Origin: Brachyspira pilosicoli
Lineage (GTDB): Bacteria; Spirochaetota; Brachyspiria; Brachyspirales; Brachyspiraceae
Length of the DNA: 64,000 nt
Direction: 5' to 3'
Assembly (NCBI RefSeq): GCF_036997485.1
Contig: NZ_JAWLPU010000002.1
Location: 248,001-312,000 of the forward strand
Shown here: positions 53,005 to 53,112 of the stretch, piece after piece
Layout: each line of letters starts with the position of its first letter
How positions within the stretch are numbered: the stretch's first letter is position 1
The notes under the pieces: model-generated
The model's input: the letters and a program-made list of their open reading frames with translations, nothing else
What the model was told of the DNA's origin: nothing
The model's database searches: none
Position numbers and translations under genes: made by a program

Positions 53005-53112
53005 GCAGAAGTCATCAGCTTTTATATTTTTTGATAGTTTTGAAAAAAATAAATAAGCGGTTTAATTATTTAACAAATTGATTAAATAATCTAAGGAGAC
53101 CTCATTCCTTAT
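53005..53112 (-). promoter_or_regulatory. Fluoride (crcB) riboswitch upstream of the antiporter gene
   Basis: Read on the minus strand, stem 1 is TAAGGA/TCCTTA (53106-53111 with 53092-53097) enclosing loop ATGAGGTC. The conserved AAACC precedes stem 3, GCTTATTTATTTTTT (53044-53058) with AAAAAATATAAAAGC (53018-53032). The 3' end GCTGATGACTTCTGC (53005-53019) matches the crcB consensus CTGATG-C-CT-C-TGC. The loop GAGGTC pairs with GACTTC, giving the defining pseudoknot. A hairpin of about 28 nt is inserted between stem 1 and AAACC. Downstream, ACTTAAATTA/TAATTTAAGT (52953-52984) may form the expression platform. Confidence 0.83.

Follow-up and report, generated by a model that had tools for sequence, protein, structure and literature searches.

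The fluoride riboswitch of Bacillus cereus follows a transcriptional design with a terminator (PMC11077080). Among the genes controlled by fluoride riboswitches, Na+/H+ antiporters are the second most common, behind exporters, and they have been tied to pH homeostasis (PMC11139923). In C. difficile, the operon CD0656-7, encoding a CLC protein and an NhaP-type antiporter, lies behind a fluoride riboswitch (PMC11477304). Here we describe a related locus from Brachyspira pilosicoli. We analyzed a stretch of 64,000 nucleotides (nt), positions 248,001 to 312,000 of contig NZ_JAWLPU010000002.1 (the window), and focused on the leader of a minus-strand gene for a CPA2 (NHA2/NapA-like) cation:proton antiporter. 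We conclude, with a probability of about 0.92, that this leader contains a crcB-class, fluoride-sensing transcriptional ON riboswitch.

The original prediction for this leader had proposed a stem 1 with an ATGAGG loop, a 3′ element and a GAGGTC/GACTTC pseudoknot, and all of them were found on the minus strand. In the RNA, GAGGUC and GACUUC are complementary and able to form the pseudoknot, and the segment UGAUGACUUC represents the 3′ half of the predicted fluoride pocket and pseudoknot. L1 contains AUG and the 3′ element contains UGAUG, the nucleotides of the predicted pocket, which we take to be positions A6, U7, G8 and U38-G42 of the T. petrophila structure. Two core motifs, GGAATGA[AG]GT and GCT[AG]ATGACNTCT, each occur exactly once in the 64 kb window, either strand considered, with a spacing of 89 nt. 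Scoring with the Rfam Fluoride model (RF01734), suggested with the prediction as a check, resulted in a full-length match (model positions 1-64) spanning 52999-53118 on the minus strand, with 23.2 bits and E = 3e-4 in a 471-base stretch, but the gathering score of 34 bits was not reached. A default scan therefore overlooks this aptamer, and the Rfam scan of the whole window at the gathering score reported tRNA only and no riboswitch. As genome-wide RF01734 searches at E up to 10 gave weak matches in nearly all genomes, including all 14 controls, the score in the window alone is a weak case. Overall, the window by itself makes only a moderate case for a fluoride aptamer.

The reality of the aptamer is settled by its conservation in orthologous leaders and at antiporter loci outside Brachyspira. 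It is retained upstream of the antiporter gene in 21 Brachyspira genomes. Three of these leaders (G008, G012 and G011) exceed the gathering score with 45.0, 39.9 and 35.6 bits, and the other 18 of the 21 score below it. Outside the genus, 19 of 20 antiporter loci have an above-cut-off fluoride riboswitch directly upstream. These loci belong to Bacillota and one Fusobacterium, and include Fusobacterium mortiferum, Holdemania, Holdemanella, Traorella, Longicatena, Butyricicoccus, Ruminococcus and others. The linkage between riboswitch and antiporter is not universal, since the aptamer was not found in the Brachyspira relative G010, whose antiporter is 65% identical, or in the Clostridia contig L076. 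Across the 21 Brachyspira species the core AUGA, AAACCGC and GCUGAUGACUUCUGC is almost invariant, while the remaining leader has diverged.

Covariation was analyzed in 40 aptamers, 21 from Brachyspira and 19 from the other genomes. At every position counted in P1, P3 and the pseudoknot, 36-40 of the 40 aptamers have a standard pair, and P1 is paired in all of them. Changes on both sides of a pair were observed at three places. P1 varies at its first counted pair, which is either A-U (25) or G-C (15); in the pseudoknot, the third pair from the 5′ end is mostly G-U (22) or A-U (12), but also G-C, U-G and U-A; and at the third P3 pair, 36 aptamers have U-A and the rest C-G (G008), U-G or A-U. The J1/2 hairpin keeps its pairing with unrelated sequences. 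Its stem has a mean length of 9.8 base pairs (bp) in 18 distinct Brachyspira sequences compared with 3.9 bp in shuffled loops, and of 4.1 bp in the non-Brachyspira aptamers compared with 2.6 bp in shuffles; in Brachyspira the hairpin is closed by A-U, G-U or G-C. The aptamer parts, the covariation, the overlap between aptamer and terminator described below and the gene linkage in three phyla were all computed directly.

Downstream of the aptamer core we identified a putative expression platform. The terminator fold in the window was computed on a fixed stretch, from AAAGCUGAUGACUUCUGC to GCAGAUAAUAGCUU, and yielded −21.5 kcal/mol with a z-score of −4.6, none of 200 shuffles being equally stable. 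The 5′ arm of this terminator is the same 3′ strand of the aptamer that closes P3 and makes the pseudoknot, and therefore aptamer and terminator are mutually exclusive. A terminator sharing the aptamer 3′ strand was predicted in 37 of the 40 leaders (18 of 21 in Brachyspira and 19 of 19 in the others), although the per-leader z-scores are somewhat flattering because the rule picks the best among several U tracts. In the 19 non-Brachyspira leaders the terminator is compact and has a mostly clean run of T. Since the platform has the transcriptional design of B. cereus, fluoride-dependent antitermination is the most likely mode of control. In the model that we infer for fluoride binding, the direction of control and the protective role of the antiporter, the strand GCUGAUGACUUCUGC would depart from the aptamer without fluoride and become the 5′ arm of the intrinsic terminator, and transcription would halt at the UUUUUAUAUUU tract. 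With fluoride in the pocket, as a Mg-fluoride cluster, P1, P3 and the pseudoknot would retain the GCUGAUGACUUCUGC strand and the antiporter gene would be transcribed. The antiporter would then most likely counter the acid and the cation imbalance that result from the entry of hydrogen fluoride (HF). Taken together, sequence, covariation, expression platform and gene neighbourhood support the predicted fluoride riboswitch in control of a cation:proton antiporter.

Table 1. Coordinates of the predicted riboswitch, its expression platform and the antiporter gene within the window.
Feature	Position	Strand	Remarks
Promoter TTGAAA-16 nt-TAGAAT, TG before the −10 box	53122..53149	−	10/12 consensus matches
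Fluoride riboswitch aptamer (crcB RNA, RF01734)	53005..53111	−	Rfam match, orthologues, covariation
P1 stem-loop UAAGGA-AUGAGGUC-UCCUUA, loop includes GAGGUC (5′ pseudoknot strand)	53092..53111	−	
J1/2 hairpin GAUUAUUUAAU/GUUAAAUAAUU, 11 bp in the window	53064..53091	−	
AAACCGCUU ... AAAAGC: P3 stem with AU-rich, expanded apical part, then UGAUGACUUC	53008..53063	−	
AAACCGCUU, followed by the AU-rich P3 extension	53055..53063	−	
3′ element AAAAGCUGAUGACUUCUGC	53005..53023	−	
Terminator hairpin, 5′ arm AGCUGAUGACUUCUGCAAAU, 3′ arm UUUUUGCAGAUAAUAGC, long AU-rich internal helix	52927..53020	−	
Terminator 3′ arm UUUUUGCAGAUAAUAGC	52927..52943	−	
U-rich tract UUUUUAUAUUU, 3′ of the terminator stem	52916..52926	−	
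Likely ribosome-binding site AAAAAAGGAU	52869..52878	−	Conserved, 9 nt upstream of ATG
CPA2-type cation:proton antiporter gene, 396 amino acids, PF00999	51669..52859	−	ATG at 52859

The aptamer sits between a conserved promoter and the antiporter gene on the minus strand (Table 1). The TTGAAA box is kept in 20 of 20 aligned Brachyspira leaders; promoter-like matches of such quality are frequent by chance in the window, where 9 were found and 6.0 are expected. As the next gene beyond the antiporter is convergent (50135-51250, plus strand), the antiporter probably forms a single-gene unit. The region 49556-51250, convergent with the antiporter gene, encodes a TusA-domain protein and, after it, a class V aminotransferase (PF00266), a pair that possibly handles sulfur or selenium. 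A divergent gene at 53309-54037 encodes a 242-residue protein with a signal-like start and without a Pfam match, possibly an outer-membrane protein. A weak match to the DUF2815 small RNA family at 53266-53311 (18.5 versus 41.2 bits, E 0.78) was rejected.

The protein matches PF00999 (Na_H_Exchanger) in Pfam with 159.6 bits. Its best solved relatives are the Na+/H+ exchanger NHA2/SLC9B2 (1.5e-37), then NapA-type antiporters, and residues D158, D159 and R316, the counterparts of the two aspartates and the arginine of NHA2 in the alignment, do not vary within the antiporter clade. Based on the family match, these relatives and the invariant cation-site residues, we expect the protein to act as a cation:proton antiporter. 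With the NCBIfam CPA2 model it stays below the cut-off (49 of 238 bits). The closest named relatives come from B. pilosicoli, with 98% identity. In the protein tree, Brachyspira clusters with F. mortiferum and an Andreesenia-like metagenome-assembled genome among Bacillota (95/96 support; root uncertain). A joint spread of riboswitch and gene by horizontal transfer would fit. We also observed, in Brachyspira, a truncated antiporter copy of 138 residues with an internal stop (L044, G041:C52:33766-34179) and a full-length antiporter gene with one stop (L038, G002:C147).

Control of an antiporter had been read as pointing to an additional fluoride response, which is probably the wrong framing. 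No match to Fluc/CrcB (PF02537) was found in any of 26 Brachyspira genomes, compared with matches in 10 of 14 control genomes. A single CLC gene is present in 23 of the 26 genomes; its product has a GAGVP and a GRAGP motif, ClcA is matched, and in a structure search CLC-F (6d0j) was absent among its matches. By contrast, a CLC of Holdemanella matches CLC-F 6d0j at 1.7e-101. In a side observation on the Brachyspira CLC (L055:1306-2559; G000:C3, about 405857-406873), GRAGP replaces the usual GREGP in 6 of 6 copies examined, and this change of the gating glutamate to alanine would point to an uncoupled chloride channel instead of an exchanger. Because Fluc was not found, the CLC is ClcA-like and not CLC-F, and the riboswitch linkage is near one-to-one, the antiporter looks like the principal fluoride-response gene and, in Brachyspira, like the main target of the riboswitch.

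A similar survey covered the other phyla. Fluc was not found in the 20 non-Brachyspira genomes that carry the antiporter, and in all but one of them there is exactly one above-cut-off riboswitch, located before the antiporter. An order-level sample consisted of 209 Bacillota genomes of the order around Holdemania, 86 with and 123 without the antiporter. The riboswitch lies 32-243 nt upstream of 77 of the 86 antiporters. Conversely, of 84 riboswitches, 77 precede this antiporter gene; among the seven others, four are followed by a CLC gene (G072, G073, G077 and G100). Fluc occurs in none of the 86 antiporter genomes versus 24 of the 123 without antiporter (Fisher p = 2e-6, phylogeny ignored), which is suggestive of mutual exclusion. 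Gene content thus suggests that in these gut bacteria, too, the antiporter is the main or only fluoride-controlled defence gene. In one genome (G108:C5:51600-54100, L105), riboswitch, antiporter and a CLC gene with a CLC-F-like GREGV filter motif are consecutive, placing both types of riboswitch-controlled gene side by side.

Fluoride enters cells as HF and releases acid and fluoride inside. The antiporter most likely restores pH or cation balance; alternatively, it might weaken the pH gradient by which fluoride is trapped, or it might transport fluoride directly. The first two roles fit the conserved cation site better, and the lack of known exporters keeps direct fluoride transport in consideration. 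The riboswitch could be a real fluoride ON switch and the antiporter itself the exporter, alone or coupled to protons or cations, replacing Fluc and CLC-F in gut anaerobes. This is unlikely in our view, although several counts point in its direction: Fluc is missing from the 26 Brachyspira, the 20 other and the 86 order-sample antiporter genomes, 50 of these 86 have neither Fluc nor a CLC of any type, and in most genomes the antiporter is the sole riboswitch-controlled gene. However, 69 of the 123 genomes without the antiporter also lack both Fluc and CLC, and exporter absence is thus common in this group. Moreover, the NHA2/NapA cation-site residues are retained without exception, Holdemanella holds both the antiporter and CLC-F, and G108 has both in one run. 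We also know of no anion transport by this antiporter fold. In a broader proposal, doubtful but conceivable, Brachyspira and many gut Bacillota would rely on the NHA2-like riboswitch-controlled clade as a stand-alone defence against fluoride in place of Fluc and CLC-F, with the antiporter possibly exporting fluoride or collapsing the HF-trapping pH gradient.

Several observations weigh against a working fluoride ON switch in Brachyspira. The window copy falls about 11 bits short of the Rfam cut-off. Its AU-rich, long-looped terminator is not listed by a simple terminator scan, and no clear terminator was found in the Brachyspira leaders G012, G018 and G022 under the rule applied. In addition, pseudoknot position 1 (in the numbering of PMC11077080; pair 6 of our covariation count) is C-G in 21 of 21 Brachyspira and in three Holdemania aptamers, and U-G in 14 others. 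In B. cereus, a U-G wobble at this position is needed for switching, and its change to C-G leads to 75% read-through without fluoride (PMC11077080). Basal read-through in Brachyspira might therefore be high. The change that renders the B. cereus switch largely constitutive, together with the low covariance-model scores of most Brachyspira copies, could indicate a degenerate former riboswitch, in which the fold was kept, the fluoride response was lost in Brachyspira and the antiporter became constitutive. We consider this very unlikely, as the three core segments are nearly unaltered across 21 species despite the divergence of the leader and the competing terminator is retained. Furthermore, a G-U pair at pseudoknot position 4, present in all Brachyspira aptamers except G022, holds the total pairing strength near the B. 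cereus level. The C-G pair at position 1 in Brachyspira and Holdemania would be a natural counter-example to the reported requirement for a U-G wobble.

The genome contains a second weak RF01734 match (16.7 bits, C3:460133-460227), which lies on another contig inside an open reading frame of 290 amino acids, has no fluoride context and probably arose by chance. That the aptamer in the window is likewise a chance resemblance within an AT-rich leader, as this match and the sub-threshold score might imply, is extremely improbable and is refuted by the orthologous position, the above-threshold orthologues, the covariation and the gene linkage in three phyla.

The original prediction had stressed an antiporter rather than a fluoride channel as the target. 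This pairing was borne out, but it is not unusual: as riboswitch-linked antiporters have been reported (PMC11139923; PMC11477304), the kind of system is already known. In the literature searched, with most subscription papers outside it, no publication joins fluoride, Brachyspira and riboswitch, and as far as we have seen it contains no description of the Brachyspira member or of the near one-to-one tie between the antiporter clade and the riboswitch. The locus extends the range of the fluoride riboswitch to a genus of gut spirochaetes, with an AT-rich, expanded version of the aptamer that escapes default annotation. With the antiporter clade as the sole fluoride-riboswitch target in most genomes examined, these genomes offer clean test cases for the role of Na+/H+ antiporters in fluoride resistance. 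The C-G pair that occurs naturally at pseudoknot position 1 likewise probes the recent wobble-for-switching rule.

The Brachyspira aptamer resembles RF01734 members of the B. cereus type in its P1 with an AUG loop, AAACCGC, P3, the UGAUGAC element and the pseudoknot between the loop and the 3′ end, as well as in a terminator that employs the 3′ strand of the pseudoknot. It differs from known members in being very AT-rich, in a J1/2 hairpin of 7-13 bp compared with 3-6 bp in the Bacillota relatives, in a P3 lengthened with AU pairs and in a terminator loop enlarged by an extra helix, and from B. cereus in having C-G instead of U-G at pseudoknot position 1. As in C. difficile CD0656-7, an antiporter gene is placed under a fluoride riboswitch. 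Unlike in that operon, the Brachyspira antiporter stands alone, directly behind the riboswitch and without a fluoride exporter gene, and it is nearest to the NHA2/NapA type, whereas the C. difficile protein is NhaP-type by annotation. With SLC9B2/NHA2 and NapA (CPA2) the Brachyspira antiporter shares PF00999 and the cation-site aspartate pair and arginine, but in contrast to them it belongs to a bacterial group of about 390-400 amino acids that is linked to fluoride riboswitches.
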